Below the pieces are notes generated by a model. The model saw nothing but the letters and a program-made list of their open reading frames with translations, had not been told where the DNA came from and did not search any database. Of a stretch of 38,353 bases of DNA, positions 12,771 through 38,353 are shown piece after piece (position 1 is the first letter of the stretch; each line of letters begins with the position of its first letter). The stretch spans positions 1 to 38,353 of the forward strand of contig JAIFLC010000034.1 of the NCBI GenBank assembly GCA_020049295.1, in the 5' to 3' direction. A program made the position numbers and the translations under genes. This DNA is from Bacteroidota bacterium (GTDB lineage Bacteria > Bacteroidota > Bacteroidia > Bacteroidales > UBA12077).

Positions 12771-14589
12771 ATGGATAGGAATTCGATTATTGGAATTATA
12801 CTAATTGCGGGTATTTTGGTTCTTTATAGTATTTTAAGTCAACCATCTAAAGAGCAGATTGAGGAGGCAAAACATAAAAGGGATTCATTAGAACTGGTGC
12901 ATCAAAACCAGCTAATGGAGGAAAAAGCAATGGAAGAAGCCAGAGCCCTAATGCCAAAACCCGAGATTAAAGAGGATGAAATAGGTACAGATCAATTAAA
13001 AAGCTTATATGGCAATTTTGCTGAAGCAGCTGAAGGAGTGCAAAACTTTATTACAATAGAAAATGATTTAATGAAAGTTAAATTAACCAATAAAGGTGGA
13101 CGTATTTATTCGGTAGAACTTAAACAGTTTAAAACATATACACAACAACCCTTATTATTATTTGATGGTGATTCAACGGTTTTTGGATTGAACTTCTTTT
13201 CACAAAACCGAAGCATTATTACAAACGACTTGTTTTTTAGCCCAATAGAAGAAAATTCTTCGTATGTTATTGAGAATGATTCAAAATCTATAAAACTGAG
13301 ATTGAATGCAGGTGAAGGAAAATACATTGAATATGCGTATACAATGTATCCAAATAGTTATAAAATAGATTTTGATATTAATTTTGTTGGTATAAATGAA
13401 GTAATTGCAGGTAACTTAAATGTAATTGATCTTAATTGGTCAGTATATTCGCCTCAGCTTGAAAAAGGAGCTAAAAATGAAAATATGTACACCACTATTG
13501 GTTACAAATTTTTTAATGATGAGGTTAATTCATTAACATCCCGTGGAAAAGATACTCAAAAAGAAGAATTAAATGAGAAAATAAAATGGATCTCCTATCA
13601 GCAACAATTTTTCTCTTCAATACTGGTTTCGAAAAACTTTTTTCCAAATGCAGTGATTGAATTTCAGAATTTGAAAGAAGATGATGAACCTGGTAAATAC
13701 TTAAAACATTTTAAATCGACTATTGGTATACCTTTCGAAAATACTGAAAAATATACAGTTGCGTTAGAGTTTTATTTTGGACCAAATCACTTTAATACGC
13801 TTAAGGAATACAAAAATGATTTTGAACGTATCGTTCCTTTGGGCTGGGGAATTTTTGGCTGGATAAATAGGTTTGTTGTTATTCCTGTTTTTAATTTTCT
13901 CGATAACTTTAGTTTTTTGAATTACGGGTTAATCATATTGTTATTAACTATTTTTATTAAACTCATTTTATTCCCATTAACTTATAAATCATACCTTTCT
14001 ACAGCCAAAATGAGGGTTTTAAAACCTGAGGTTGATGAAATAGCTAAAAAGTTTCCTAAACAGGAAGATGCTATGAAAAAACAACAGGCAACCATGGCGA
14101 TGTACAAAAAGGCAGGCGTAAATCCAATGGGTGGTTGTATTCCTATGCTTATTCAGTTTATGGGCTGATGATCTTTCTTCGTTTGATTCAATTATTAATT
14201 TACCTTTTACTGTTCCATTCGGATATGGTGATCATGTAAGTTTATTTACCATTTTAATGGCTGTTGCAATGATTTTTACCACTCGAATTAGTACAGCTCA
14301 GATGGGGGATACAAACCAACAGATTCCTGGTATGAAATTTATGATGACCTGGCTAATGCCATTAATGATGATATTCATCTTTAATAGTTATTCATCAGGT
14401 TTGACCTATTATTATTTCTTATCGAACATGTTTACCTTAGGACAAACTTATCTTATGAGTGGTTTTGTTAATGATGAAGAAATCATGCGTAAGATTCATG
14501 AAAATAAGAAGAAACCGGTTGTAAAATCAAAATGGCAGCAGCGTTTGGAGGATGCTGCCAAAAAGAGAGGATATAATCCGAAGAAATAA
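12771..14589 (+). pseudogene. yidC: Membrane protein insertase YidC, interrupted by an out-of-frame internal deletion near 14156
   Basis: ORF 12771..14168 ends NPMGGCIPMLIQ-FMG*; ORF 14131..14589 resumes LWADDLSSFDSIINLPFTVPFGYGDHVSLFTILMA in another frame. The conserved segment between them is missing. Confidence 0.85.
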
Positions 14590-22204: not shown

Positions 22205-22624
22205 CTAATACCGTTCACGTTGGTTAAAGAAGAAATCTGCTTCGCGTTGCATGTTCTCGATCGAATCAGAACCATGAATAGCATTGCGTTGAACCGATTC
22301 GGCAAACATTTTTCGAATAGTTCCTTCTTCAGCTTTAGCAGGGTCGGTATTTCCTATAAGTTTTCGAAAATCTTCTATTGCATTTTCTTTTTCAAGGAGT
22401 AATGCCACTATTGGTCCGGAACTCATAAAGTCCACTAATCCTTCATAAAATGGTTTACCACGATGCATTTCATAAAATTTTTCAGCTTCATCGCGTGTAA
22501 GTTTTGTTGAACGAATAGCAGAGATTCTGAATCCAGCCTGATTTATTATGGCTAAGATGGGTCCAACATGATTTCTTCTGCAAGCCTGTGGCTTTATCAT
22601 GGCAAAGGTATATCCTAGTGGCAT
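22205..22624 (-). CDS. ndk: Nucleoside diphosphate kinase
   Basis: TFAMIKPQACRRNHVGPILAIINQAGFRI; EMHRGKPFYEGLVDFMSSGPIVALLLE; active-site NAIHGSDS. Confidence 0.94.
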   Translation of the reverse strand: MPLGYTFAMIKPQACRRNHVGPILAIINQAGFRISAIRSTKLTRDEAEKFYEMHRGKPFYEGLVDFMSSGPIVALLLEKENAIEDFRKLIGNTDPAKAEEGTIRKMFAESVQRNAIHGSDSIENMQREADFFFNQRERY

Positions 22625-22696
22625 AGTTTTTTTTTTAGTTCTATTACCGAAGATATAAAATTTTTACTATTAACTTAAAATCTGAATGGATTATTT

Positions 22697-22704
22697 TATC
22701 TTTG
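22697..22704 (+). promoter_or_regulatory. Possible -7 element (TATCTTTG)
   Basis: Exact TAnnTTTG match 23 nt before ATG 22727; no convincing -33 element. Confidence 0.35.
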
Positions 22705-22726
22705 ATAATTGTGAATTTTTATAATT

Positions 22727-23708
22727 ATGCTGCAAGTGAAGGCCTTAGATAAAAAAATGATTTCAGATCTTAAGCAATTAATTGATCAGTCGAAAAATCC
22801 CTTAATTATTACACATTATAATCCAGATGGAGATGCCATAGGATCAATGCTGGCGTTGTATCATTATCTCGTTAAAAAGGGAAAGAATCCATTTATGGTT
22901 TCTCCAAATGATTATCCTGAGTTTTTACATTGGATGCAAGGCAATGATAAGGTGACTGTTTACAAAAGAAACACAGGAACAGTTATAAATGCTTTAAATG
23001 CTGCTGATTTGATTTTTGCTGTTGATTTTAATGATCCTGAAAGAACTGAAGGGTTAGAAAAATATATTAACGAAGCCAAAGGTAAAAAGGTAATGATTGA
23101 CCATCATCCTGAACCTACCAATTTTGCTGATCTGGTCATTTCAGACATAAAATATAGCTCAACTGCCGAAATGATTTTTCATGTTATTGAAAGCCTTGAT
23201 GATGAAAATTTGATTGATAAGGCTTGTGCCGAATGCATTTATTGTGGTATTATGACTGATACTGGATCATTTAATTATAATTCGTCTAATCCATATACCT
23301 ATTATGTTGTTTCAAAATTAATTGGTTTGGGCATTAATAAAGATCGCATATATTGGAATGTTTATGATAACTTTTCGGCTGACAGAATGCGTTTGCTGGG
23401 ATATTGCCTGTATAAAAAGATGGAAGTATTTCCCGAATATCGAACTGCATTCATCAGTTTAACGAAAAAGGATATACAGGAGTTTAAGTTTGCACCCGGC
23501 GATACAGAGGGATTTGTAAATTATCCCTTATCAATAAAACGTATAAGGTTTACAGCTAGCTGCAAACAAAATTGCCGAAGATTACTTTAATGGAGGTGGA
23601 CATCTTAATGCTTCTGGTGGTTATTCATATTCGTCATTAGATGAAACGCTAAAAAAATTCAGAGATTTATTGCCCAATTTTAAAACTGCGCTAAATGATT
23701 TCTTATAA
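22727..23708 (+). pseudogene. NrnA-like DHH/DHHA1 phosphoesterase with an out-of-frame internal deletion near 23556
   Basis: N-terminal ITHYNPDGDAIGSM and MIDHHPEP; ORF leaves frame after NYPLSIKRIRFTA. ANKIAEDYFNGGGHLNASGGYSYSSLDETLKKF continues in another frame to stop 23706-23708. Confidence 0.85.
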
Positions 23709-24228
23709 ATGGCTCTCATTTTATGGTTTAATTGGATTTGCTATTTTATTTTCATATTGTAGAAATAATCAAAATGAAGAAAAAGCAATTCCCCGTGATT
23801 ATAAGCAAAAACTGGAAAAAATAAACAAAGTTTTACTCGACAAAGATACAGAGAACATCCAGCAATTTATAAAACGACGCGGATGGGATATGAAAACCTC
23901 CCAGAGCGGTTTGTGGTATATGATTTATAAATCCGGTGAGGGAGAAAAAGTTAAGAAAAATAACCTGATTGAGCTTAAATATAAAATATGGTTAATTGAT
24001 GGTTCGCTAATTTATAGTTCTGATAGCCTCGGAATAAAAAACTTCAGGGTTGGACAGGGTGGAGTAGAACCTGGATTAGAGGAAGGAGTACTTTTATTAA
24101 ATCAGGGCAGTTGTGCAAGGTTTATTTTGCCGCCACACCTTGCTCATGGAATAGTAGGTGATGGTGATAAGATTCCGGGCAGAGCAATATTGGTTTATGA
24201 CATTGAAGTAATTAGATTAAATCAGTAG
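23695..24228 (+). CDS. GldI-like FKBP-type peptidyl-prolyl isomerase lipoprotein
   Basis: N-terminal hydrophobic segment ending SYC; YMIYKSGEGEKVKKNNLIELKYKIWLIDGSLIYSS...GVEPGLEEGVLLLNQG. Confidence 0.78.
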   Translation: MISYKWLSFYGLIGFAILFSYCRNNQNEEKAIPRDYKQKLEKINKVLLDKDTENIQQFIKRRGWDMKTSQSGLWYMIYKSGEGEKVKKNNLIELKYKIWLIDGSLIYSSDSLGIKNFRVGQGGVEPGLEEGVLLLNQGSCARFILPPHLAHGIVGDGDKIPGRAILVYDIEVIRLNQ

Positions 24229-24312
24229 ACAAGTAAATTGTAAAATTGTATTTGGTAAATTGGTGTACGATAATTGATATTAAGTTCAATATATTTTTTT
24301 CATAAAAAAAAC

Positions 24313-24320
24313 TATCTTTG
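24313..24320 (+). promoter_or_regulatory. Possible -7 element (TATCTTTG)
   Basis: Exact TAnnTTTG match 24 nt before ATG 24345; no clear -33 element. Confidence 0.35.
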
Positions 24321-24344
24321 AAAAAATACACTAACATAGAAAAC

Positions 24345-25253
24345 ATGAATAGAAAACTTATCCTACTTCTGATTTCTCTATTTTTATTAAATTCATGTGA
24401 TTATTTTACAAATTATCCGGGTTACAAAAAATCAAAATCAGGTTTTTATTATAAACTTGAAAAATTTGGCGAAAGCAATCAAAAGGCCAAACCTGGTGAT
24501 TATATAACTGCAGATATATTGTATTCAACAATCAATGATTCAGTTTTTTTTGAAGGTCGTCGAAAATTACAGATTACTGATCCATCTTTTCCAGGATCAA
24601 TCGATGAGTGTTTTTTAATGCTTGCTCAAGATGAGAAAGCTACATTCATTATATCTGCTTCCGATTTTTTCACTAAAACCCTCGAAACAACGGTTCCTCA
24701 ATTTTTGCAATCGAGTGATGAAATGAAAGTAACTATTGATATTATTGAGGTTCAGACAGAAAACAACTATTATCGCGAAAAAGAAGCATTTCTTCATTGG
24801 ATTGAAGATTTTGGTGATTACGAAAAAGTTATTTTAAGGCAGTTTATTGAACAGGAAAAAATTGTAATTTCACCTACTTCAACTGGTTTGTTTCATTTAG
24901 TAATTAAGCAAGGCGAAGGTGAATCAGTTCAGATGGGTGATACAGTAACTGTTCATTATGAAGGTAAGTTTTTGAATGGCAAATTTTTTGATTCTACCAA
25001 ACGACGAAACTCACCTTTTCAGTTTGTTTATGGTCGCAAATGGCAAGTTGTTGCAGGTTTAGAAGAAGCAATTGGACGAATGAAAGCAGGAGAAAAATCA
25101 ATTTTTATTTTGCCATCTCAGATTGGATTTGGAGAAACAGGTTCATCAACGGGTATTATTCCACCCTATACATCCACCATTTTTGAGGTAGAACTGCTCG
25201 AATTAAAGAAAGGGCCACGTGATAAATCACTTGATTTAAATAAATATGATTAA
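24345..25253 (+). CDS. FKBP-type peptidyl-prolyl isomerase lipoprotein
   Basis: MNRKLILLLISLFLLNSC lipobox; C-terminal FKBP GDTVTVHYEGKFLNGKFFDST...VVAGLEEAIGRMKAGEKSIFILPSQIGFGE. Confidence 0.88.
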   Translation: MNRKLILLLISLFLLNSCDYFTNYPGYKKSKSGFYYKLEKFGESNQKAKPGDYITADILYSTINDSVFFEGRRKLQITDPSFPGSIDECFLMLAQDEKATFIISASDFFTKTLETTVPQFLQSSDEMKVTIDIIEVQTENNYYREKEAFLHWIEDFGDYEKVILRQFIEQEKIVISPTSTGLFHLVIKQGEGESVQMGDTVTVHYEGKFLNGKFFDSTKRRNSPFQFVYGRKWQVVAGLEEAIGRMKAGEKSIFILPSQIGFGETGSSTGIIPPYTSTIFEVELLELKKGPRDKSLDLNKYD

Positions 25254-25256
25254 ACA

Positions 25257-25280
25257 TAAAACCCTGGTGAACCAGGGTTT
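25257..25280. terminator. Bidirectional Rho-independent terminator
   Basis: AAAACCCTGG-tgaa-CCAGGGTTTT between convergent genes. Confidence 0.85.
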
Positions 25281-25285
25281 TCTAT

Positions 25286-26257
25286 TTAATATGATTGGTA
25301 TTCGTATCGATATTGCATTCTGTATTTGTAAGAAACATAATAAACCTCAACTTTTTCAAGTAATCCTTTCGAGCTATATGTATATGTTTTTTGGGAGTAT
25401 TCAGTAGGATCATCATCATACCATCTTTCCTCTATCAGATTGCCATTAGAATCGTACTTATACGTATTATTGATATAAAAATTTCCTTTTGGTTGTTCAC
25501 GTTTAACTTCAATAATGTTCCCTTTTTTATCATATGAATAGTTCTCCATATAACTAAAACTTTCTAAATCGTATTTGGTTTTTTGAGTCATTAAATTGCC
25601 GTCAAAAACAAAATAAAACTGTTCAGAAATTTTTCCATTAACATCATATTCAACAGTTTCAATAATATTATTGTTTTTATCATAGACATTAATTATTTTA
25701 CCTAATACTCTTTTGTCCTGATTTAAAATGGTAACAGTTGATTTATTGCCATTATACTCAAATGAACGAATCTGAAGTATATTATCTAGCGTATCAGTTT
25801 TGATAATTTCCTGCAGACGATCTTTAGAATCATAATTGTATTTTATTAATTCATAATCACTTCCATTAAATCTTTCTTCTGATATCTTTTTGCCCTTATT
25901 ATCGTATGTGAAATTTTGCTTAAGCAAAATTTTGCCTTCCGAAACTTTGTTATTAATATATTCAATTCTATTTTCTTTATTATCGTATTTATAACTAAGT
26001 TTTTGATCAATACTACCTTTTTTCCCAGCAGAATAATAAATTTCTTCAATTATATTTCCTTTGTGATCGTATTTTTTTGAAAAATTCTTGTAACCATCCT
26101 TTTTAGGTTTTCCCTTTTCGTACTTATGATTCCATTGGGTTTGTACCTGAATACGGTTTTTTACAAGATTTTCTTTCCAATTAATTTCGCCTGGCAGTTG
26201 AGCATTTGCCATACAGGTAATAAAAGAAAAGGTAATAAAAAATACTAATTGTTTCAT
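25286..26257 (-). CDS. Secreted YD/RHS-like repeat protein
   Basis: Signal peptide MKQLVFFITFSFITCMANAQ; repeated YDNKGNIIE / YDSKDRLQEI / YDKNNNIIETVEYD / YDSNGNLIEERWYD units. Confidence 0.75.
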   Translation of the reverse strand: MKQLVFFITFSFITCMANAQLPGEINWKENLVKNRIQVQTQWNHKYEKGKPKKDGYKNFSKKYDHKGNIIEEIYYSAGKKGSIDQKLSYKYDNKENRIEYINNKVSEGKILLKQNFTYDNKGKKISEERFNGSDYELIKYNYDSKDRLQEIIKTDTLDNILQIRSFEYNGNKSTVTILNQDKRVLGKIINVYDKNNNIIETVEYDVNGKISEQFYFVFDGNLMTQKTKYDLESFSYMENYSYDKKGNIIEVKREQPKGNFYINNTYKYDSNGNLIEERWYDDDPTEYSQKTYTYSSKGLLEKVEVYYVSYKYRMQYRYEYQSY

Positions 26258-26478
26258 TTTCAGATTATTCAGTTTGTATTCCATAAATCTAGCTATCAAA
26301 TATAAGGCAAAAAAAAATAATTTCAAGTAGCTGTTTATCTCTATTGCAAAAATTGTGCATAATTTACTTTTTTATGAAAAAGAATTCAATTGGTTTTAAT
26401 ATCTAACCATTCTAATAAGTTATAAAAATAAATTGACTTCGTTTTTTTTATATTGTATCTTGGAGTTTAAAATAAATA

Positions 26479-26556: not shown

Positions 26557-29547
26557 ATGAAAAGAAAAATCGGTTTAATAATTGTTTTTGCAATATTATT
26601 TTGCAACTTTGTTTTCTCTCAAATACCCGAATCTTTTAATTACCAAGCGGTCTTGCGCAACAATTCCGGCGAACTATTAAAAGACCAAAGTGTTACTATC
26701 CAGATTTCAATTATTAATGGTTCTTCATCAGGATCAACAATTTATCGCGAACAACATAGTAAAACTACAAATAACTTTGGAATGATTGACCTTAAAATTG
26801 GAACAGGAACAAGTAATTTAGGTTCTTTTAGTGATATTGTCTGGAGTACTTTATCAAAATTTATTAAAATTGAAGTAAATACTGGCACTGGATTTATTGA
26901 TCTCGGTACCTCACAAATATTATCGGTACCTTATGCATTATATTCAAAAACGGCCGAAAATATTGATAAAGATGTACTTTATTTTACCGATACAGATACG
27001 TTATTTGCTGTAAAAGACAGAGAAGGCAATGTGGTTTTTGTTGTTTTTCCTGATGGGGCAAAGGTTATAACAAATCCAAATGCAAAAGGATCTGTTGGCG
27101 GTTTTGCCGTTAGTGGTCGCACACCAGCAAAGCAAGAAGAAGATTACTTTCAGATTACTCCTGACAGTACTCGTTTTTATATTAATGAAATTTCAGAAAA
27201 AGGCAGCGTTGGAGGATTTGCAGTAAGTGGACGAACACCGGCAAAATCAACCTTAAATGATTATTTAATTGTAACAAGCGATAGTACGCGAATATATGTA
27301 AACGATACATCAACAACAAAAGGCACTGTTGGTGGATTTGCAGTAAGTGGACGCACACCGGCAAAAGGTGAATCACAAAAGTTTTTAGATTTGACCAAAG
27401 CAAACTATTTTATTGGTCATGAGGCTGGAAAATCGAATACAGATGGATTATATAATTCGTTTATTGGGTATAAATCCGGATATTCAAATACAATAGGTGA
27501 AAGAAATGTGTTTTTAGGTTACTATTCCGGATTTTCAAACATTGATGGAGCAGGCAACTTGTTTATTGGCGATTCCTCAGGATATTCAAATATAGATGGT
27601 TTTTACAATATCTATTTAGGTAATTTAAGTGGCAAATACAACACATCAGGGTTTCAAAATATTGGTATTGGTGTAAAGGCCGGATACAAAAATTCAACAG
27701 GGAACCGTAATGTTTTTATTGGTACATTAACAGGACAAGAAAACACCGAAGGTGAAATGAATGTTTTTATCGGTAATGCTGCTGGAACTTTTAATACAAT
27801 TGGTAAAAGCAATGTTTTTATTGGTCGTACCTCAGGGTATAAAAATTCCTCAGGTGAAGATAACATAATGATTGGGAATGCTGCCGGACTTGAAAATACA
27901 ACAGCAAGCAATAATATTTTTATGGGTAATTCGGCCGGAAATAAAAACTTAACAGGGAGTGAAAATATATTTATTGGTAAAGAAAGCGGATTTTCGAATA
28001 CCGAGGGTAAACTTAATGTATGTATTGGTTATCAAAGTGGCTACTCACTTACAACTGGTAACTATAATTCTTATCTGGGATTCTGGACTGGTTATCATAA
28101 TACAATAGGTACTTTTAATACTTTTATTGGTGCACAAGCAGGAATGTACAATACCGAGAGTAATAATAATACTTTCATTGGGTCCTATGCTGCTGCTGAC
28201 GATACCTGTGGTTGGGATAATACATTTGTAGGTGGTGCTGCTGGAAGATATAGCTCGGGGTATAATAATACATTTTTAGGTTCAATTGCAGGCGAATCTA
28301 CTCTTTACTCACACGATAATGTTTATGTAGGATTTCTAACTGGACGAAATAACCTATATGGAAATTATAATGTTTTTATTGGTTCAGCCACTGGGTATTG
28401 GACAAATGGTGATAACAATTTATTCATAGGTAGGTCCGCTGGTGAATATGCACAAGGCAGTAATAATATATTAATTGGATTTAGAGCTGGTTTTTATAAT
28501 AATAGTTCCAATAAACTGTTTATTGAAAACTCAGATTCAGACTCAACACTGGCTTTGATATGGGGCGATTTTAATGAGAATATTTTACGGTTTAATGGAT
28601 CCGTTGCATTAGGTGGTTTACCTATAGAAAATACGAATTTAACCATAAATAACGATGCAAGCAAAGGAGCAATTGCAGTAAAAGGTATTGGTGATACATA
28701 TAATTACTCACAAGTTAATCTATATTCGAACGAAGGACCAATTTCAAGATTATATGAAATTAACCATAACAAATCAAACAATTTTAGCATTGTTTATTAC
28801 GATGGCACCGATTGGAATACTCGTTTTGTTATAAATACACAGGGAGATTTTACCTTCAATGGAAATCAAACAATTAGTAGCGATTCCACATTTGTAAATA
28901 TTTACCCAAATAGCGGTGAACTTGGACGGAAATCTACAATAAATCTACATGGAACCTTTGGTACGGGTACAATTACCGATTATGGAACCAGAAGTTTAGC
29001 CCAGATTCAAGCTGGTTGTAACGATAACGAAGCATGGGGAGGAGCATTTTTACGCATACTCGGTATTACTACTGATGGAGGTACTCCAACTGAATGGATG
29101 AGAATAAATACTGAAAATGGCAATGTCGGTATTGGCACGGATAGTCCTGATGAAAAACTTGTTGTCTTTAATGGTTCAACAACAGGAAAATATACAAGCT
29201 CTGGCTGGACTCATTCATCTGATCTCAGATTAAAAGAAAATATTAAACCGATTTCTAATGTTCTTTCAGACATTAACAAGTTAGAAGCAGTTCAATTCAA
29301 TTTTATAAATGATCAGGCAAAAACGCCACAATTGGGTTTTATAGCTCAAGATGTTGAAAAAATATTTCCCGAATTAGTAATTACAGATAATAGCGGCTTT
29401 AAAAGTATAGCCTACGATCAGTTCTCTCCGCTATTGGTAAAAGCAATAAATGAACAGCAAACACAGATTGAAATATTGAAAACAGAAAACAATGAGTTAA
29501 AACAAAAACTAAATGAAATTATACTCTTACTTACAACTGAGAAATAG
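26557..29547 (+). CDS. Fibre-like secreted repeat protein A with Peptidase_S74-type C-terminal chaperone
   Basis: Signal peptide; IPESFNYQAVLRNNSGELLKDQSVTIQISI N-domain; 3x GGFAVSGRTPAK; ~21x 17-aa NxFIGxxxG repeats; C-terminal SDLRLKENIKPISN...LGFIAQDVEKIFPELV. Confidence 0.88.
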   Translation: MKRKIGLIIVFAILFCNFVFSQIPESFNYQAVLRNNSGELLKDQSVTIQISIINGSSSGSTIYREQHSKTTNNFGMIDLKIGTGTSNLGSFSDIVWSTLSKFIKIEVNTGTGFIDLGTSQILSVPYALYSKTAENIDKDVLYFTDTDTLFAVKDREGNVVFVVFPDGAKVITNPNAKGSVGGFAVSGRTPAKQEEDYFQITPDSTRFYINEISEKGSVGGFAVSGRTPAKSTLNDYLIVTSDSTRIYVNDTSTTKGTVGGFAVSGRTPAKGESQKFLDLTKANYFIGHEAGKSNTDGLYNSFIGYKSGYSNTIGERNVFLGYYSGFSNIDGAGNLFIGDSSGYSNIDGFYNIYLGNLSGKYNTSGFQNIGIGVKAGYKNSTGNRNVFIGTLTGQENTEGEMNVFIGNAAGTFNTIGKSNVFIGRTSGYKNSSGEDNIMIGNAAGLENTTASNNIFMGNSAGNKNLTGSENIFIGKESGFSNTEGKLNVCIGYQSGYSLTTGNYNSYLGFWTGYHNTIGTFNTFIGAQAGMYNTESNNNTFIGSYAAADDTCGWDNTFVGGAAGRYSSGYNNTFLGSIAGESTLYSHDNVYVGFLTGRNNLYGNYNVFIGSATGYWTNGDNNLFIGRSAGEYAQGSNNILIGFRAGFYNNSSNKLFIENSDSDSTLALIWGDFNENILRFNGSVALGGLPIENTNLTINNDASKGAIAVKGIGDTYNYSQVNLYSNEGPISRLYEINHNKSNNFSIVYYDGTDWNTRFVINTQGDFTFNGNQTISSDSTFVNIYPNSGELGRKSTINLHGTFGTGTITDYGTRSLAQIQAGCNDNEAWGGAFLRILGITTDGGTPTEWMRINTENGNVGIGTDSPDEKLVVFNGSTTGKYTSSGWTHSSDLRLKENIKPISNVLSDINKLEAVQFNFINDQAKTPQLGFIAQDVEKIFPELVITDNSGFKSIAYDQFSPLLVKAINEQQTQIEILKTENNELKQKLNEIILLLTTEK
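27085..27366 (+). repeat. GGFAVSGRTPAK stalk repeats in protein A (3 copies)
   Basis: Core codons begin at 27097, 27211 and 27331; periods 114 and 120 nt. Confidence 0.92.
27403..28530 (+). repeat. 17-aa beta-roll-like repeat array in protein A
   Basis: Consensus xxNxFIGxxxGxxNxxG, about 21 units by hand alignment. Confidence 0.9.
29218..29547 (+). other. Peptidase_S74-like intramolecular chaperone domain
   Basis: SDLRLKENI motif, LGFIAQDVEKIFPELV, YDQFSPLLVKAINEQQTQIEILKTENNELKQKL coiled coil. Confidence 0.88.
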
Positions 29548-29563
29548 AAATAAAACCAAATGA

Positions 29564-29600
29564 TAAAAAAACCTGACATACTCTTCTGCCAGGTTTTTTT
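29564..29600 (+). terminator. Rho-independent terminator between fibre genes A and B
   Basis: AAAAAACCTGaCA-tactcttc-TGcCAGGTTTTTTT. Confidence 0.78.
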
Positions 29601-29699
29601 GTATTAATCAATATTAACATTGATTTAAATAGTAGAAACCAACTTGCTAAATTCAAAATAATAAGATATCTTAATCCTCAAACAATTAAATTTAAAACT

Positions 29700-32600
29700 A
29701 TGAGAAAGTTTATATTTTCTTTTAGCTTCTTGATTTTTATAGCAATATCTTTAATCGGAATTGCTCAGGTACCTGAGGCTTTTAATTACCAAGCAGTAAT
29801 AAGAAATAGTTCGGGTGAAATTATTAAAAATCAATCCGTAATTATCAGAATTTCAATTATTGATGAATCAATATCGGGCCCAACAATTTTTAGTGAGACC
29901 CATAGTAAAACAACCAATAATTTTGGTATTGTAAATTTGCAAATTGGAAATGGCAGTCCTGTTATTAGTGCATTCCCTTCAATAGATTGGAAAAATTCTG
30001 CTAAATATATCAAAGTTGAAGTTAATATAGGCAGCGGATATATAGATATGGGTACTACAAAACTTTTATCGGTTCCCTATGCATTGGTTTCGAAGGATGT
30101 AATAAATAATAACGATGCCGATGCTGACCCGGAAAACGAACTACAAATAGTATCAATTTCTAATGATACAATTTTCTTAAGCAATGGAGGTTTTGTAAAA
30201 CTACCTGCCGATCAGGTTGAAGATGCAGATGCTGACTCAACCAATGAAATACAGGATTTAAATCTAACAGCAAATGTGTTGACCATAACCAACAAAGCTA
30301 ATCCTGCACAGATAAGCTTGGCTCAATATGTTGGAACCAATACAGATGAGCAACTATTGAATTTGACAGGAACAGATTTAACCATATCAAATGGTAATAC
30401 TGTTGATTTAAGCCCTATACAAGATGGAGTAAATGATGCAGATGCAAATCCTACAAATGAATTACAGAGTCTTACCTTAATTGGCGATACCTTAAAAATC
30501 AGCAATAGTAACCAGGTTATCTTTCCATATGATAGTAGTCGATGGGCTGCAAATGGCAATAAACTATATTATAATACTGGTAATGTAGGAATAGGAACAA
30601 ATGATCCTTCAAGTATGCTCGAAGTAAAATCATCAGGTACAACAGGAGCATTGTTTCAGGTAATAAATGCCAATAACGATACAGTTTTTGCAGTTTATCC
30701 TGATGGAGTAAAGGTGTTTGTAGATCCGGATACAAAAGGAAAAGTAGGCGGATTTGCAGTTAGTGGACGAACACCGGCCAAAGCAGGTGAAAATGTAGAC
30801 TATTTCAGGGTTACACCCGACAGTACGCGAATATATGTAAACGATTCAATAGGTACTAAGGGCAAGGTTGGTGGATTTGCAGTTAGTGGTCGTACCCCAG
30901 CAAAGGGAGGAATAACAGAGTATTTTTCGATTAATAAAGACAGCACTCGTATTTATATAAATGATACATCAAGTATAAAAGGAAAAGTAGGAGGATTTGC
31001 AGTAAGTGGTCGTACACCGGCAAAGAGTCAGGGTAATGAGTACCTATTTGTAAATAGAGATAGCACACGTATTTATGTAAACGATTCATCAATTACAAAG
31101 GGTAAAGTAGGCGGATTTGCAGTAAGTGGACGAACACCTGCTAAAGGAGAATCTACCAAATTTATGGATATGACCAGAGAAAATTATTTTATTGGTCATG
31201 AAAGTGGTCAAAAAATTACAACAGGTAAATATAACTCAACACTTGGTTATCAAAGTGGATATTCTCTTCAGAATGGAGAAAGTAATTCATTTATTGGTTA
31301 CCAAAGTGGTTATAATACCAACTCAGGGCTCGGAAATCTATTTGTAGGTTACCAATCGGGCTTTGTAAATCAAGGGGGTAATTATAACACATTTGTTGGT
31401 TATCAGAGTGGTTTGTCAAATTCTTCTGGTATTAACAACACATTCTTAGGTAGTTTTTCAGGATTATTAAATACTATTGGAAGCTACAATACATTTGTAG
31501 GAGATTCTGCAGGTTATAAAAATTTAAATGGAACTCAAAATTCATTTTTTGGAGACAAAGCCGGATTAAATAATGTAGATGGATCAAATAATATATTTAT
31601 TGGAAATAGATCTGGTTATGGCAATTCTGGAGGCGATTCATGTATTTTTATAGGGAACCAGAGTGGATTTGGAAACAACATAGGTAATTCTAATATATTT
31701 ATTGGCAATAGTAGTGGTTATCATAATTATAATGGGGAAATGAATATTTTTATGGGTTATTATTCTGGATACCAAAATGATCAAGGTTCATATAACGTAT
31801 ATATGGGATATAAGTCGGGTTTTAATAATTATTCAGGTTCGATGAATCTTTTTCAGGGTTTCCAAGCAGGATATTCAAATTTTAATGGATCTTATAATGT
31901 TTTCTTAGGTTACCAGGCTGGCAGATCTAATTATAATGGGTCTGAAAACGTTTTAATAGGTTATAAAGCAGGAAAGTCTTTAACAAGCGGAGCTGCTAAT
32001 GTTTTTATTGGCTATAGTGCTGGTGAAAATGCCACGGGAGGTATATATAATACTTTTATTGGTTTTGAAACAGGAAAAATAAATTCATCAGGTGAATCAA
32101 ATAATTTCTTTGGATTTCAAGCTGGAAATAAGAATACAATAGGAGGGTCTAATTTATTTATTGGTAATCAGGCAGGTTATGAAAATAATGAAGGTACACA
32201 TAATGTTTTTATTGGTAATGCTTCAGGATTTAATAATAAAAAGGGTGGTTCAAATGTTTTTATTGGAGTTGAAGCTGGTCGAGATAACGATTCAGGATTA
32301 TATAATGTTTTCATTGGTAGGGCTGCCGGATTTAACCATACTTCAGGAAATTACAATGTATTTCTTGGAATGGGCACTGGTCATGGAAATATAATAGGTA
32401 ATTATAATACATTTATTGGACCTGATGCAGGAATAAATGTTGCTTCAGGTAACAAGAATGTAGTTATAGGATATAAGGCAGGTAGATATGTTACTGGAGA
32501 TAGTAAACTTGTGATTGCTGATAATGATACAGTAAACCTGATTTATGGTGATTTTGTTAATCAACAGGTTGTAATTAACAAACAGCTTGGAATAAATGTT

Positions 32601-32945
32601 ACTCCATATCTTGTAGGTTCATATGCACTAAATGTAAACGGAACAATGAAATTGGGCCCTAATGGATCGACGATAAATAACATCATTAGACATACTTATA
32701 CAAGCGTAGGTACGGGAGATATAATTGGTGACGGCAGTTTTAAATACACATTTAGTGTTTCTGGAGCTACTGTTGGTTCAACAGTTATGGTTTCTCCCCA
32801 AATTGAGCTACCCGATGGAATCGTTATTAGTTATGCAAGAGTATCTGCTGCCGAAACTGTGGAAATCAAAATTCAGAATACAAAGAGTACAACTATTGAT
32901 TCTGCATTAGGAGGCTTAAGCTGGTATGTTACTATTATTGAATAA
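29700..32945 (+). CDS. Fibre-like secreted repeat protein B
   Basis: Signal peptide; VPEAFNYQAVIRNSSGEIIKNQSVIIRISI; DADADPENELQ-type acidic repeats; 4x GGFAVSGRTPAK; ~25x 17-aa repeats; beta-rich C-terminus with no S74 motif. Confidence 0.87.
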   Translation: MRKFIFSFSFLIFIAISLIGIAQVPEAFNYQAVIRNSSGEIIKNQSVIIRISIIDESISGPTIFSETHSKTTNNFGIVNLQIGNGSPVISAFPSIDWKNSAKYIKVEVNIGSGYIDMGTTKLLSVPYALVSKDVINNNDADADPENELQIVSISNDTIFLSNGGFVKLPADQVEDADADSTNEIQDLNLTANVLTITNKANPAQISLAQYVGTNTDEQLLNLTGTDLTISNGNTVDLSPIQDGVNDADANPTNELQSLTLIGDTLKISNSNQVIFPYDSSRWAANGNKLYYNTGNVGIGTNDPSSMLEVKSSGTTGALFQVINANNDTVFAVYPDGVKVFVDPDTKGKVGGFAVSGRTPAKAGENVDYFRVTPDSTRIYVNDSIGTKGKVGGFAVSGRTPAKGGITEYFSINKDSTRIYINDTSSIKGKVGGFAVSGRTPAKSQGNEYLFVNRDSTRIYVNDSSITKGKVGGFAVSGRTPAKGESTKFMDMTRENYFIGHESGQKITTGKYNSTLGYQSGYSLQNGESNSFIGYQSGYNTNSGLGNLFVGYQSGFVNQGGNYNTFVGYQSGLSNSSGINNTFLGSFSGLLNTIGSYNTFVGDSAGYKNLNGTQNSFFGDKAGLNNVDGSNNIFIGNRSGYGNSGGDSCIFIGNQSGFGNNIGNSNIFIGNSSGYHNYNGEMNIFMGYYSGYQNDQGSYNVYMGYKSGFNNYSGSMNLFQGFQAGYSNFNGSYNVFLGYQAGRSNYNGSENVLIGYKAGKSLTSGAANVFIGYSAGENATGGIYNTFIGFETGKINSSGESNNFFGFQAGNKNTIGGSNLFIGNQAGYENNEGTHNVFIGNASGFNNKKGGSNVFIGVEAGRDNDSGLYNVFIGRAAGFNHTSGNYNVFLGMGTGHGNIIGNYNTFIGPDAGINVASGNKNVVIGYKAGRYVTGDSKLVIADNDTVNLIYGDFVNQQVVINKQLGINVTPYLVGSYALNVNGTMKLGPNGSTINNIIRHTYTSVGTGDIIGDGSFKYTFSVSGATVGSTVMVSPQIELPDGIVISYARVSAAETVEIKIQNTKSTTIDSALGGLSWYVTIIE
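30106..30480 (+). repeat. DADADPxNELQ acidic modules in protein B
   Basis: NNDADADPENELQ, EDADADSTNEIQ, NTDEQLLNL, NDADANPTNELQ. Confidence 0.7.
30735..31145 (+). repeat. GGFAVSGRTPAK stalk repeats in protein B (4 copies)
   Basis: Core codons begin at 30747, 30870, 30990 and 31110. Confidence 0.92.
31182..32526 (+). repeat. 17-aa beta-roll-like repeat array in protein B
   Basis: About 25 units, e.g. NYNTFVGYQSGLSNSSG, SYNVFLGYQAGRSNYNG. Confidence 0.9.
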
Positions 32946-33075
32946 TCATTTGCATCTTATCAATTTCTATTTAATTGATTTTTAGTCGTTAATTCTTAAA
33001 ATAACTACGATTAATAATTCCTCTTGATTTTTATATACGGAAACGTTATCTTTATTTCTTATTTTTTTAAATCTA

Positions 33076-35688
33076 TTGAATATGAGAAAGATAATTGTTT
33101 TCAGAAAAAAAATAATAAAAATAATTCTGATTTGTTTGTTCCTTATTTTTAATGGCAATACCATTATTAAGGCGCAAAATGTTACAGTTACCGATAACGA
33201 GATATATTCAGCGGATAATTCTGCTATGCTCGATGTGTATTCGACTACAAAAGGTATGTTAGTGCCAAGGCTTACAACAATGGCAAAGGATACCATACAT
33301 TTACCTGCTACTGGACTAATTGTATATGATACCGGATATAATAGCTTTTTCTATTATAATGGTACGAATTGGGTTAAAATACCTCAGGTAAATTCTTTAG
33401 CAGGGTCAGAATCAGCCTTATTTGCTGTAGTTAATGCTGCTGGCGATACTGTTTTTGCAGTATATAACGATGGTGTTAAAGTAACAGTGGATGAAGGATT
33501 AAAAGGAACAGTAGGAGGTTTTGCAGTTAGTGGACGAACCCCCGCAAAATTAGGCGAAGAAATAAATTATTTTCATGTAACTCCAGATAGTACAAGAATT
33601 TACATAAACGATACTTCATCAACCAAAGGAACAGTCGGCGGTTTTGCAGTAAGTGGACGCACACCGGCAAAGGCTGGAGAATTTGATTATTTACGAGTAA
33701 CACCTGATAGTACGCGCGTTTATGTAAACGAAAGTTTAACTAAAGGAACAGTAGGTGGTTTTGCCGTAAGTGGAAGAACTCCAGCAAAAGGAGGAATAAA
33801 TGAGTATTTTTCGATAAACAAGGACAGTACCCGAATTTATATAAATGATTCATTAGCTACAAAGGGAAAAGTGGGCGGATTTGCAGTTAGTGGCCGAACA
33901 CCGGCAAAGAGCCTAGGTAACGAGTACTTATTTGTAAATAGCGATAGTACACGAATCTATGTAAACGATTCATCAATTACAAAAGGATCGGTTGGAGGAT
34001 TTGCTGTAAGTGGCCGCACGCCAGCAAAAGTAGGATCTGCAAAATTTATGGACATGACCAAAGAAAACTATTTTATTGGTCACGAAGCTGGCAAATCAAA
34101 TACCTCCGGACTTTACAATTCGTTTATAGGATATCAGGTAGGTATTACCAATACCACCGGAAGATATAATTCATTCATGGGTTACAAAACAGGAAATGCG
34201 AACCTTGATGGAGAAAGCAATGTGTTTATTGGTAACGAGAGTGGTTATACCAATCAAACTGGTGATAATAATACATTTATGGGTTACAGGGCTGGTTATA
34301 CCAATAAAGTCAGTTATAATTCATTTATTGGTTACCAGGCAGGATATTCCAATGATACTGGTCAATACAACTCCTTTATGGGTTACAATGCTGGTTATTC
34401 AAACACCAAGGGAAATAGTAATGTTTTTATAGGAAATGAAAGTGGTAGGACTAACAGCGAAGGAAATCATAATGTTTTCCTTGGATTTAATAGTGGTTAT
34501 ACGAATGCGACCGGACATAATAATACTTTTCTGGGACATGTTGCCGGGTTTACTAATTCGACTGGTTCAAATAATGTTTTCTTGGGCGATAGTTCTGGTT
34601 ATAGTAACATATCAGGGGAGCAAAATATTTTCCTTGGGAATGGTAGCGGTAAAGCAAACTCCCAGGGTAATTACAACGCATTTATTGGTTATGAAGCAGG
34701 ACACTCAAATACCACAGCAAATAATAATGCATTTATTGGATATCAGGCGGGTCGGTATACTAAAGTCGGCAGCAAAAATGTCTTTATAGGATACCAGGCA
34801 GGGTATAAAAACGTTGGTAGTGTTGAGGGTCCAACCCAACCTGGAAATAATAATATTTATATTGGTGATCAGACTGCATACAATAATACTACAGGTCGAA
34901 GTAATGTATATATTGGGCATAATGCTGGATTAGGAAGTAATCCAATTAATACCGGTAATGCTCCACGATTTAATGTTTATATTGGTTATCAGGCAGGGTA
35001 CTTAGAATACCAAGGAAGAAACAATGCTTTTATTGGTTATCGGGCAGGATATTCAAATTATTCTGGTGGTTTTTCTACTTTTATTGGCGACCAGGCCGGG
35101 TACACCAACTATAGCGGCAGTAATAATACATTTATTGGTAACCAGGCTGGATATTCCCACTATTCAGGTAATAGTAATGTAAATATAGGAGATTATGCAG
35201 GCTGGTCGAATGTAACTGGTGACGGAAATGTTTTTCTGGGCTATTATGCCGGTTTTTACGAAACAGGTAGCAATAAGCTGTTTATTGATAATCAAAACAG
35301 AACTAATGAAAACCTTTCAAGGGCCAATGCCTTAATTTACGGGGAATTTAATGCTACCACAAGTAGTCAACTTTTTAGGATTAATGGTAAAACTGAATTT
35401 AATGGTAGTGTGTCAATGCCAATTACAACGGTGACTGCAACCACTACACTTGGTGCAACTCATTATACCGTTTTAGTAAACAGTGCCTCTGCCGTTACAA
35501 TTAATTTACCTACGGCTACTACATGTTCAGGCAGAATTTATGTGATTAAGAATATCAGTTCCGGAGCTGTTACTATTGATGGAAATTTAACTGAAACTAT
35601 TGATGGTTCAATTACCAATACCATATCAACTCAATTTGAAAAGAGAGTTATTCAATCAAATGGAACAAATTGGTTTATTATAAACTAA
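33076..35688 (+). CDS. Fibre-like secreted repeat protein C
   Basis: Distinct N-domain AMLDVYSTTKGMLVPRLTTMAKDTIHLPATGLIVYDTGYNSFFYYNGTNWVKI; 5x GGFAVSGRTPAK; ~22x 17-aa repeats; C-terminal TATTTLGATHYTVLVNSASAVTINLPTA tip. Confidence 0.87.
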   Translation: MNMRKIIVFRKKIIKIILICLFLIFNGNTIIKAQNVTVTDNEIYSADNSAMLDVYSTTKGMLVPRLTTMAKDTIHLPATGLIVYDTGYNSFFYYNGTNWVKIPQVNSLAGSESALFAVVNAAGDTVFAVYNDGVKVTVDEGLKGTVGGFAVSGRTPAKLGEEINYFHVTPDSTRIYINDTSSTKGTVGGFAVSGRTPAKAGEFDYLRVTPDSTRVYVNESLTKGTVGGFAVSGRTPAKGGINEYFSINKDSTRIYINDSLATKGKVGGFAVSGRTPAKSLGNEYLFVNSDSTRIYVNDSSITKGSVGGFAVSGRTPAKVGSAKFMDMTKENYFIGHEAGKSNTSGLYNSFIGYQVGITNTTGRYNSFMGYKTGNANLDGESNVFIGNESGYTNQTGDNNTFMGYRAGYTNKVSYNSFIGYQAGYSNDTGQYNSFMGYNAGYSNTKGNSNVFIGNESGRTNSEGNHNVFLGFNSGYTNATGHNNTFLGHVAGFTNSTGSNNVFLGDSSGYSNISGEQNIFLGNGSGKANSQGNYNAFIGYEAGHSNTTANNNAFIGYQAGRYTKVGSKNVFIGYQAGYKNVGSVEGPTQPGNNNIYIGDQTAYNNTTGRSNVYIGHNAGLGSNPINTGNAPRFNVYIGYQAGYLEYQGRNNAFIGYRAGYSNYSGGFSTFIGDQAGYTNYSGSNNTFIGNQAGYSHYSGNSNVNIGDYAGWSNVTGDGNVFLGYYAGFYETGSNKLFIDNQNRTNENLSRANALIYGEFNATTSSQLFRINGKTEFNGSVSMPITTVTATTTLGATHYTVLVNSASAVTINLPTATTCSGRIYVIKNISSGAVTIDGNLTETIDGSITNTISTQFEKRVIQSNGTNWFIIN
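33502..34029 (+). repeat. GGFAVSGRTPAK stalk repeats in protein C (5 copies)
   Basis: Core codons begin at 33514, 33637, 33754, 33874 and 33994. Confidence 0.92.
34066..35297 (+). repeat. 17-aa beta-roll-like repeat array in protein C
   Basis: About 22 units, e.g. SYNSFIGYQAGYSNDTG, SNNTFIGNQAGYSHYSG. Confidence 0.9.
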
Positions 35689-35723
35689 AGGTTTTCTAAT
35701 TATCAACCATAAATAATAAAATA

Positions 35724-38309
35724 ATGGCAACAAAAAAAACAACACTCACCAGTAATAAAAGAGGTAAACAAATTACTCAACTTAGAATTCCTAAAAGAGA
35801 CTACAGCACTCATCTTGTTGTGCAATTTCGTGAAGGAATAAATGTACCATATAGCAAAGATGCTGCAAAATCAATTAAAGATTTTAAAGTCGGACCATGG
35901 GAAAAATTAGAAAAAAAGTATCCGGGTATAACTATTAGCCCTCTTTTTTCGAGCGTAAAACCTGAAATACTTAAAAGACTGATCAGTAAAGCTAAAGAGA
36001 TGGACCCAACATACAAAGAAGGCCGATTCTTTCAGTATTTCAGTGTTGTTTGTCCTGTTGAATCAAAACCACTTGAAATTCTTGAAGAACTTTCAGAATG
36101 GAATAATATTAAAACAGTTAAAATAGCCAGTAAATATACACATCCATCGGTAAGTTATAATGATGAAGATAGAGCTGGAAATCAAAATTATTTAGATGAA
36201 GCAACAATCTCAGGTGTTGGAATTGGAGCTAAAAATGTTTGGGATAGTACCACTATTTTAGGAAGCGATGGTGATGGTATTAGATTTGTTGATATTGAAA
36301 AAGGTTGGACACTTGACCATGAGGACTTAGGATTAGCTCCTTCAACTTTGATTGGAGGTACAATTGATGATACAGCTCGTGCAGATGGAACATCAGTACT
36401 TGGAATAATATGTGCTACTGATAATGGAGACAACTGCATTGGTATAGCTCCGAAATCTGCAGTTAAAGTAATTGCATATTCCGATACTCCATCGATTACT
36501 GAATATTCTCTTGAAGATGCAATTATTTTAAGCTTAACATACCTGGGATTTGGTGATGTATTACTAGTCGAAGCGCAAAAAACACTATCCATTCCTGGAA
36601 ACGATTATGATGGATGCAATGTTCCTGTTGAAGTTGATCCAAATGTTTTTGATGCCATCCGGCTTGCAACTGCACTTGGAATTGTAGTTATTGAACCCGG
36701 AGGTGATGGTGATAATTCAACCACATTTGTCAATTTTGATGAATTGCAGATTGGTGGTCAATATATACTTTACCCAAGTTCTACTCAATACCATGGCGAT
36801 TCAGGAGCAATATTTGTTACAGCTGCACACTCGGATGTTACAGCTGTAAGTGCAGTAAATACACATGAGATTATGCCTTGGGCCCCCAAAGGAGAACGCA
36901 TTGATTGCTATGCTTGGGGAGAATTTATATATACTTTATCATCCGATTCTTCAGGTGCTATCGACCAATATACCGATACTTACAGAGGAACTTCTGGAGC
37001 CGCTGCTATAATTGCCGGAGCAGTTTTAAACATGCAAAGTATGGCAGTTGCTGGACAGGGATACAGATTTAGCCCATTACAAATTCGCAACATCCTTCGT
37101 GATTCCACATACGGTACGCCTCTTTCTCACGATCCGGGCATAGGAACGTTGGAAAGTCTTCCTATTTATATGCCCAATCTTTATCAATTTGCTGAGCATG
37201 CTTTAAATACTTTACCAGATATATATTTGCGCGATTTTGTTGGTGATAATGGAGAACCACATGAGGGTGCTATGGCCTGGAGTCCTGATATTATTATTAA
37301 GAATAGTGAAGTTCCTGATCCAGCCCAATACTTTTTAATTGATAATCCAGATAATAATTCATTAAGCGATAATCCAGCCCCTGGAGCAAATTGCTATTTG
37401 TATTTTAGGGCGCTTAATAGAGGAGGAATAACTGCAACAGGAGTTAAGGTTCGAATTTTTTATACTGATCCATCTACTTTAATTACTCCTCAATCTTTAA
37501 TTGAAATAGGGGTATTCGATTTTCCAGATATTCCAACAGGTGATATTTTAACTTTATCAAGCGCACAATTATGGACTGCTCCAAGCACTGCCGGACATTA
37601 CTGTTTTGTTGCGTTTATTACTTGTGATCAGGACAAGTATTTCGATCCAATGGGTCTTGTGGATTATTTAACAGCCAATCCTACAAGTTGGACATGGAAT
37701 ACATATTTTGATTTTATTCGAAATAATAACAATGTAACCTGGAAAAATTTTGATATTGTTGAGATGAAGAAAAGTTCTTCAACTCCTATACCAGAAGAAG
37801 AACCAGTAGAAGAAGAAGTTATTGCACCAGATCCAGACCCAATTCAAGAAGAAGATCCAATTAACGAAAACGAACCAACACCCGGACAAGAACCAGGTAC
37901 AGATCCAGAGGAATTACCAAAAGATGGTTGGTTAAGATTAGACTTCTTTTCGCCAGGATTACCAGATAGAGATCAAAAAATGAGTCTTGAGGTACTTTCT
38001 AAATTACCTAAAGGAGTTAAGGTTTTACTTCAAATTCCAATTGCTTGGAAAAAAACCGTATTTAGAGGATCTCCTTATGTTCTTCATAATAAAAAAAGAA
38101 AAGTTGGATTTGCTCCAATCAAACCGTTAGGTAAATCAAAATTAGAAAATATCACATTCAGGGCCAATTCTAAAACTGCATTAAAATTATTTGTTCATGT
38201 GCCTGAAAAGCTGAAAAAACAAAGCTATATTATTGCTGTAAGGCAGATGCTCGAAGGAAAAGAAGTTGGTAGATTCACATGGAAACTTGTTCCTCCCAAA
38301 AAACGTTAA
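35724..38309 (+). CDS. S8/subtilisin-fold protein with degenerate catalytic motifs and an acidic Pro/Glu linker
   Basis: DGIRFVDIEKGWTLDHEDL (Asp region), RADGTSVLGIICATDNGDNCIGIAP (His region, HGT replaced by DGT), YRGTSGAAAIIAGAVLNMQ (Ser region); no N-terminal signal peptide. Confidence 0.82.
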   Translation: MATKKTTLTSNKRGKQITQLRIPKRDYSTHLVVQFREGINVPYSKDAAKSIKDFKVGPWEKLEKKYPGITISPLFSSVKPEILKRLISKAKEMDPTYKEGRFFQYFSVVCPVESKPLEILEELSEWNNIKTVKIASKYTHPSVSYNDEDRAGNQNYLDEATISGVGIGAKNVWDSTTILGSDGDGIRFVDIEKGWTLDHEDLGLAPSTLIGGTIDDTARADGTSVLGIICATDNGDNCIGIAPKSAVKVIAYSDTPSITEYSLEDAIILSLTYLGFGDVLLVEAQKTLSIPGNDYDGCNVPVEVDPNVFDAIRLATALGIVVIEPGGDGDNSTTFVNFDELQIGGQYILYPSSTQYHGDSGAIFVTAAHSDVTAVSAVNTHEIMPWAPKGERIDCYAWGEFIYTLSSDSSGAIDQYTDTYRGTSGAAAIIAGAVLNMQSMAVAGQGYRFSPLQIRNILRDSTYGTPLSHDPGIGTLESLPIYMPNLYQFAEHALNTLPDIYLRDFVGDNGEPHEGAMAWSPDIIIKNSEVPDPAQYFLIDNPDNNSLSDNPAPGANCYLYFRALNRGGITATGVKVRIFYTDPSTLITPQSLIEIGVFDFPDIPTGDILTLSSAQLWTAPSTAGHYCFVAFITCDQDKYFDPMGLVDYLTANPTSWTWNTYFDFIRNNNNVTWKNFDIVEMKKSSSTPIPEEEPVEEEVIAPDPDPIQEEDPINENEPTPGQEPGTDPEELPKDGWLRLDFFSPGLPDRDQKMSLEVLSKLPKGVKVLLQIPIAWKKTVFRGSPYVLHNKKRKVGFAPIKPLGKSKLENITFRANSKTALKLFVHVPEKLKKQSYIIAVRQMLEGKEVGRFTWKLVPPKKR

Positions 38310-38353
38310 ATAAAACCAATCAAGAAGCCTGTGAAAAGAGCAAAATAACGAAC

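Follow-up and report, generated by a model that had tools for sequence, protein, structure and literature searches.

The window, that is, the whole stretch of DNA analysed here, is the entire 38,353-nt contig C156 of a source genome (G000) comprising 2.96 Mb in 209 contigs and 79% complete, which leaves no continuation beyond the contig ends within that genome. Three fibre genes (A, B and C) lie on it consecutively and co-oriented, with a gene of the S8 (subtilisin) fold starting 35 nt after C, an arrangement given in a preliminary description of this DNA and confirmed by the ORF coordinates. The features are as follows.

22205-26326, no strand assigned: array boundary, with an RHS-repeat protein and ndk-like, DHH-like and two FKBP-like genes, in synteny with the array boundary of sister species G007 and of other genus members (all of these gene names except the RHS repeat were read from the sequence)
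26557-29547, plus strand: fibre A, 996 aa, with signal peptide, MAT-like (see below) N-terminal beta domain, three stalk repeats, roll and S74 domain
27085-27402, plus strand: stalk repeats of A
27097-27132, plus strand: first copy of the stalk 12-mer GGFAVSGRTPAK, in fibre A; further copies in A start at 27211 and 27331
27403 onwards, plus strand: 17-aa roll of A
29218-29379, plus strand: S74 intramolecular chaperone of A
29700-32945, plus strand: fibre B, 1081 aa, with signal peptide, MAT-like N-terminal domain and DADADPxNELQ linker repeats
30735-31181, plus strand: four stalk repeats of B, with 12-mers starting at 30747, 30870, 30990 and 31110
31182-32500, plus strand: roll of B, in rungs of 17 aa
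about 32667 onwards, plus strand: C-terminal SVGTG tip of B
33082-35688, plus strand: fibre C (ATG at 33082, stop ending at 35688), with signal peptide and a distinct N-terminal module (SAMLDVYSTTKG)
33502-34065, plus strand: five stalk repeats of C, with 12-mers starting at 33514, 33637, 33754, 33874 and 33994
34066 onwards, plus strand: roll of C
about 35428 onwards, plus strand: TATTTLGATHYTVLVN tip of C
35724-38309, plus strand: S8-fold protein, 861 aa, no signal peptide
35802-36128, plus strand: prodomain of the S8-fold protein
about 36171-37163, plus strand: subtilase domain
36384-36386, plus strand: codon 221 of the S8-fold gene, Asp in place of the catalytic His
36705-36707, plus strand: codon 328, Asp in place of the oxyanion-hole Asn
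37212-37772, plus strand: PDIYLRD/NNNVTWKN module
37914-38303, plus strand: C-terminal beta domain

Inspection of the sequences confirmed that signal peptide, stalk repeats, an NYFIGHE[AS]G junction and the 17-aa roll units following it are common to all three fibres, as had been described. The stalk repeat carrying GGFAVSGRTPAK occurs three times in A, four times in B and five times in C, at a spacing of 38-41 aa. That the fibres end differently also held: A terminates in a Peptidase_S74 domain (Pfam, E 1.4e-16), the only one among the three, and the tips of B and C gave no Pfam match. The shared plan proposed earlier stands for stalk and roll but does not extend to the N-terminus, as that of C differs from those of A and B and begins with a '..SAMLDVYSTTKGMLVPRL..' module. 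Mosaic adhesive trimer (MAT) fibres possess a conserved beta-rich domain of approximately 130 aa after the signal peptide, and the NCBIfam profile of this domain (NF053851) matched A (E 2.5e-11) and B (E 5.4e-6), both below the curated cut-off, with no match in C. Matches to this profile were found in 20 of 24 genomes of the family, the best reaching 47 bits against a cut-off of 60; as the fibres lie below this cut-off, they are termed MAT-like. In a single-chain model of fibre B, residues 28-122 form a beta domain of their own at the N-terminus (pLDDT about 80) and residues 495-930 a solenoid of 17-aa rungs (pLDDT mostly 80-93), with stalk and tip below pLDDT 50. A structure search of the PDB returned nothing at E <= 0.001, and one of viral fold models returned predicted viral adhesins. 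Scans for promoters and terminators found sites no more numerous than in shuffled sequence.

Elsewhere in the window, yidC is split into two ORFs (12771-14589), with some 70 nt missing near position 14160 and a frameshift relative to the intact 626-aa gene of G007. As yidC is normally essential, an assembly artefact is likely, and the split gene calls for caution on the base-level quality of the window assembly.

G000 and G007 are sister species in a PyrG tree. At the equivalent site G007 possesses thirteen co-oriented stalk fibres with differing ends (C10:15225-54555), bounded upstream by the RHS-repeat, FKBP-like, DHH-like and ndk-like genes that also mark the array boundary in the window. 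Downstream lie a SpoIIE/Y_Y_Y regulator and, adjoining the array end, a protein of 2580 aa with nineteen Big_12 Ig-like domains (L206:7435-15177). The orthologue of fibre B in G007 is 66% identical over its full length. That of fibre C has an orthologous shaft on which both the N-terminal domain and the tip are different, the tip resembling by eye those of phage tail fibres; judged from the two sequences, this pair is a direct case of end swapping, and it bears out the common shaft with interchangeable tips proposed earlier. Other species carry arrays at this site and at two further recurrent chromosomal sites. The stalk repeat was identified in 17 of 20 genomes of the genus; a view of it as confined to the genus, drawn from a narrow profile at phylum level, was overturned by a broader profile that matched 47 of 295 genomes, spread over 32 of the 183 genera in the order. 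Several of these genomes are fragmented assemblies, so that their fibre sets are covered in part.

No gene that adjoins the arrays and is conserved across the genus was found. In several other species of the genus the arrays contain a recurrent VWA protein on the opposite strand, in some cases with fn3 as well (L093, L096, L087, L089, L091, L094 and L097). This VWA-fn3 protein was rejected as a universal partner because it is missing from G000, G006, G007, G008 and G009, the window's own subclade; no neighbouring gene fits that role.

The S8 fold of the gene behind C was confirmed (PF00082, E 1.9e-8; a low-confidence model also matches subtilases). The catalytic residues Asp190 and Ser424 are retained in the window copy, and Asp replaces both the catalytic His and the oxyanion-hole Asn, each of which is present in 14 of 14 aligned relatives; on this basis the copy is predicted to be catalytically dead. 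A single base accounts for the His change and two are required for the Asn change, which makes sequencing error an unlikely source of both, although the assembly does have the apparent defect in yidC. Relatives of the gene are sporadic (cyanobacteria, Acidobacteria, Lysobacter, Fulvivirga, Phenylobacterium, Zixibacteria and others), and none was found in viral contigs. The window copy stops approximately twelve codons earlier than that of G007, with the homologous tail IKPIKKPVKRAK remaining encoded downstream of this stop (38307-38353). A leaderless 763-aa protein of genome G107 (L015:7650-9941, minus strand), C13/caspase-like by eye although Pfam names nothing in it, has C-terminal PDIYLRD and beta modules like those of the S8-fold protein and no adjoining fibres. 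Different proteases may have this C-terminal module as a shared carrier.

A further feature of the fibres lies in the stalk 12-mer, GGFAVSGR-x1x2x3-K, whose triplet x1-x3, just ahead of the final Lys, is specific to the genome. All twelve 12-mers of the window read GGFAVSGRTPAK, and nearly all of those in G007 read GGFAVSGRTPTK. The triplet is TPA in 18/18 copies in G000, TPT in 44/46 in G007, SPN in 34/34 in G013 and SPS in 28/28 in G010, with NPN also found elsewhere. Across 298 copies from 17 genomes of the genus, 91 of 98 ORFs carry the majority triplet of their own genome, a value reached in 0 of 10,000 shuffles (mean 37.9, maximum 46); repeat copies and genomes are non-independent observations, and the test therefore shows the tag to be a trait of the genome rather than counting the number of changes. 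Fst-like differentiation is 0.97, 0.83 and 0.80 at x1, x2 and x3, close to 0.5 at three further positions in the left half (16 residues), and 0.16 or less in the DSTR half. Mixed triplets within a genome also occur in the genus, in G020, G016 and G009; in G009 some contigs have SPS stalks and others SPA (L099, L100, L131 and L132), which reflects either locus-specific tags or a mixed bin. In other genera, uniform tags were seen in G104 and G207 (NST-R), G033 (VST-K) and G193 and G285 (SP[AS]-K), and mixed tags in G180 and G191. The O-glycosylation motif of secreted Bacteroidota proteins has been described as D-(S/T)-(A/I/L/V/M/T) (PMC8550257), and DS[AILVMT] is present in 165 of 166 stalk repeats, which suggests that the stalk may be glycosylated.

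Tandem repeats in tandem genes are prone to homogenisation, and the uniform triplet could be a mere relic of gene conversion within the species or of recent array expansion, a possibility in line with the sorting of the SPS and SPA sets of G009 by contig. Conversion as a sufficient cause of the tag is, however, contradicted by silent-site diversity. Fourfold sites within the 12-mers of one genome are as diverse as base composition predicts (0.43 vs 0.43 in G000), so that recent gene conversion is not the cause of the tag, and within-genome likeness at these sites hardly exceeds that between genomes. In G022 the Ser at x1 is encoded by both TCN and AGY codons, and in G007, as in G013, arrays on different contigs carry a single triplet. 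Orthologous repeats of other species can still be matched through the variable parts, and the triplet of the own genome is kept in 52 of 55 repeats whose variable part is nearest to a genome with a different triplet. Orthologous repeats are silent-saturated between species as well, and silent sites therefore cannot date the change of triplet; even an old homogenisation would have to be maintained by lineage-specific purifying selection once silent sites were saturated. A relic without selection is thus considered unlikely, and the uniformity of the triplet despite saturation argues for lineage-specific purifying selection.

Two further explanations concern the nature of the locus itself. Roll and S74 parts of the fibres match phage families (phrog_6002, phrog_4636 and phrog_5668) in addition to the viral fold models, as would be expected if these were tail fibres of a prophage lying just past the window. 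Against this, the fibres carry signal peptides, the array of G007 is flanked on both sides by chromosomal, non-phage genes, as is the upstream side of the array in the window, and the same chromosomal sites are used in many species; together with the absence of S8 relatives from the viral contigs, this rules out the prophage reading for practical purposes and upholds the earlier proposal of a chromosomally encoded fibre set. Proteins 36-42% identical to the 17-aa roll of fibre C were seen on two viral contigs (L053 and L054). The preliminary description had also made the S8-fold protein a dedicated accessory, one that would process or assemble the fibres. Its position 35 nt behind C is in keeping with such a role, as is the order within the G007 array, where an S8 orthologue whose active site is intact immediately follows the C orthologue. 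The C-terminal domain of the S8-fold protein is also better conserved between the two species (86%) than its protease domain (58%). This part of the description nevertheless did not survive comparison with other genomes: the gene is present in only 2/20 genomes of the genus (G000 and G007) and is lacking in G006 (98% complete), with stalk fibres in 17/20, and no fibre gene was seen near its relatives at the fourteen loci inspected in other taxa. Genus distribution and neighbourhoods in other phyla thus rule it out as a conserved fibre partner, and with no signal peptide and two active-site residues lost in the window copy, a dedicated processing or assembly function is quite improbable. As G000 and G007 are sister species, one acquisition in their ancestor suffices, and an acquired passenger whose protease function has been lost is a better fit than an enzyme dedicated to processing.

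The favoured interpretation, held at a probability of roughly 0.7, joins three elements: a fixed MAT-like repertoire, a stalk triplet selected by lineage through a shared partner or co-assembly, and a passenger S8 gene. Fibres A, B and C would form part of a large repertoire of MAT-like surface fibres, secreted and probably trimeric, at fixed chromosomal sites; their surface location, trimerisation and tip binding are deduced from homology, in an analysis based on sequence throughout. The N-terminal module would hold the fibre at the cell, the repeated stalk and the beta-roll would project it outward, and the exchangeable C-terminal tips, S74-processed or of other beta domains, would recognise targets. 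The uniformity of the triplet could arise from one partner met by all stalks, namely a protein with its gene elsewhere that anchors, assembles or modifies them, or alternatively from packing of stalk against stalk in hetero-trimers or bundles; in either case a change in one stalk would drive the same change in all others. That x1-x3 constitute a species-specific stalk code on all fibres of a cell, co-evolving either with a single reader common to them or with the co-assembly of stalks, is put forward tentatively, at somewhat below even odds. If so, fibre stalks would serve as a tag for self-recognition or compatibility in an adhesin repertoire that is mosaic in other respects. A stalk tag uniform across a genome despite silent saturation is a sharp evolutionary signal, pointing to a candidate common fibre partner. 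A limited open-access literature search, covering concerted evolution of repeats and S74 fibres of Bacteroidota, returned nothing directly comparable other than the MAT paper; the lack of a precedent for such a tag is weak evidence.

Among known systems, the S8-fold protein has the same full-length domain order as a subfamily of leaderless multi-domain subtilases (Calothrix, Lysobacter, Fulvivirga and Phenylobacterium), from which the window copy differs in having Asp at the His and oxyanion Asn positions and in being embedded in a fibre array. The fibres share 17-aa NxFIGxxAGxxNxxG roll repeats and the S74 chaperone with phage and giant-virus fibres, including the virion structural protein family phrog_6002, the tail spike family phrog_4636 and the FhaB-like adhesin of Bodo saltans virus; unlike these they are cellular, possess signal peptides and are not accompanied by virion genes. 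MAT fibres, which grip prey, have been described in Bdellovibrio bacteriovorus (Caulton et al. 2024, PMC10769870), and from the portions of that report drawn upon here the likeness comprises a signal peptide, a beta-rich N-terminal domain (matched below the cut-off in A and B), a repetitive shaft, interchangeable S74 or non-S74 tips, a length of about 1000 aa and many copies per genome. The swapping of S74 or non-S74 tips on a common shaft is likewise found in the fibres described here. The tandem arrays, the shared 40-aa stalk and the genome-specific triplet set them apart from MATs, being unmentioned in those same portions, as does the lack of the MAT N-terminal domain in fibre C. What keeps MAT fibres attached to the cell is described there as an open question. 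The present fibres would extend the logic of mosaic adhesin fibres beyond the single predator in which it was known, to Bacteroidota that are uncultured and possess large tandem repertoires.
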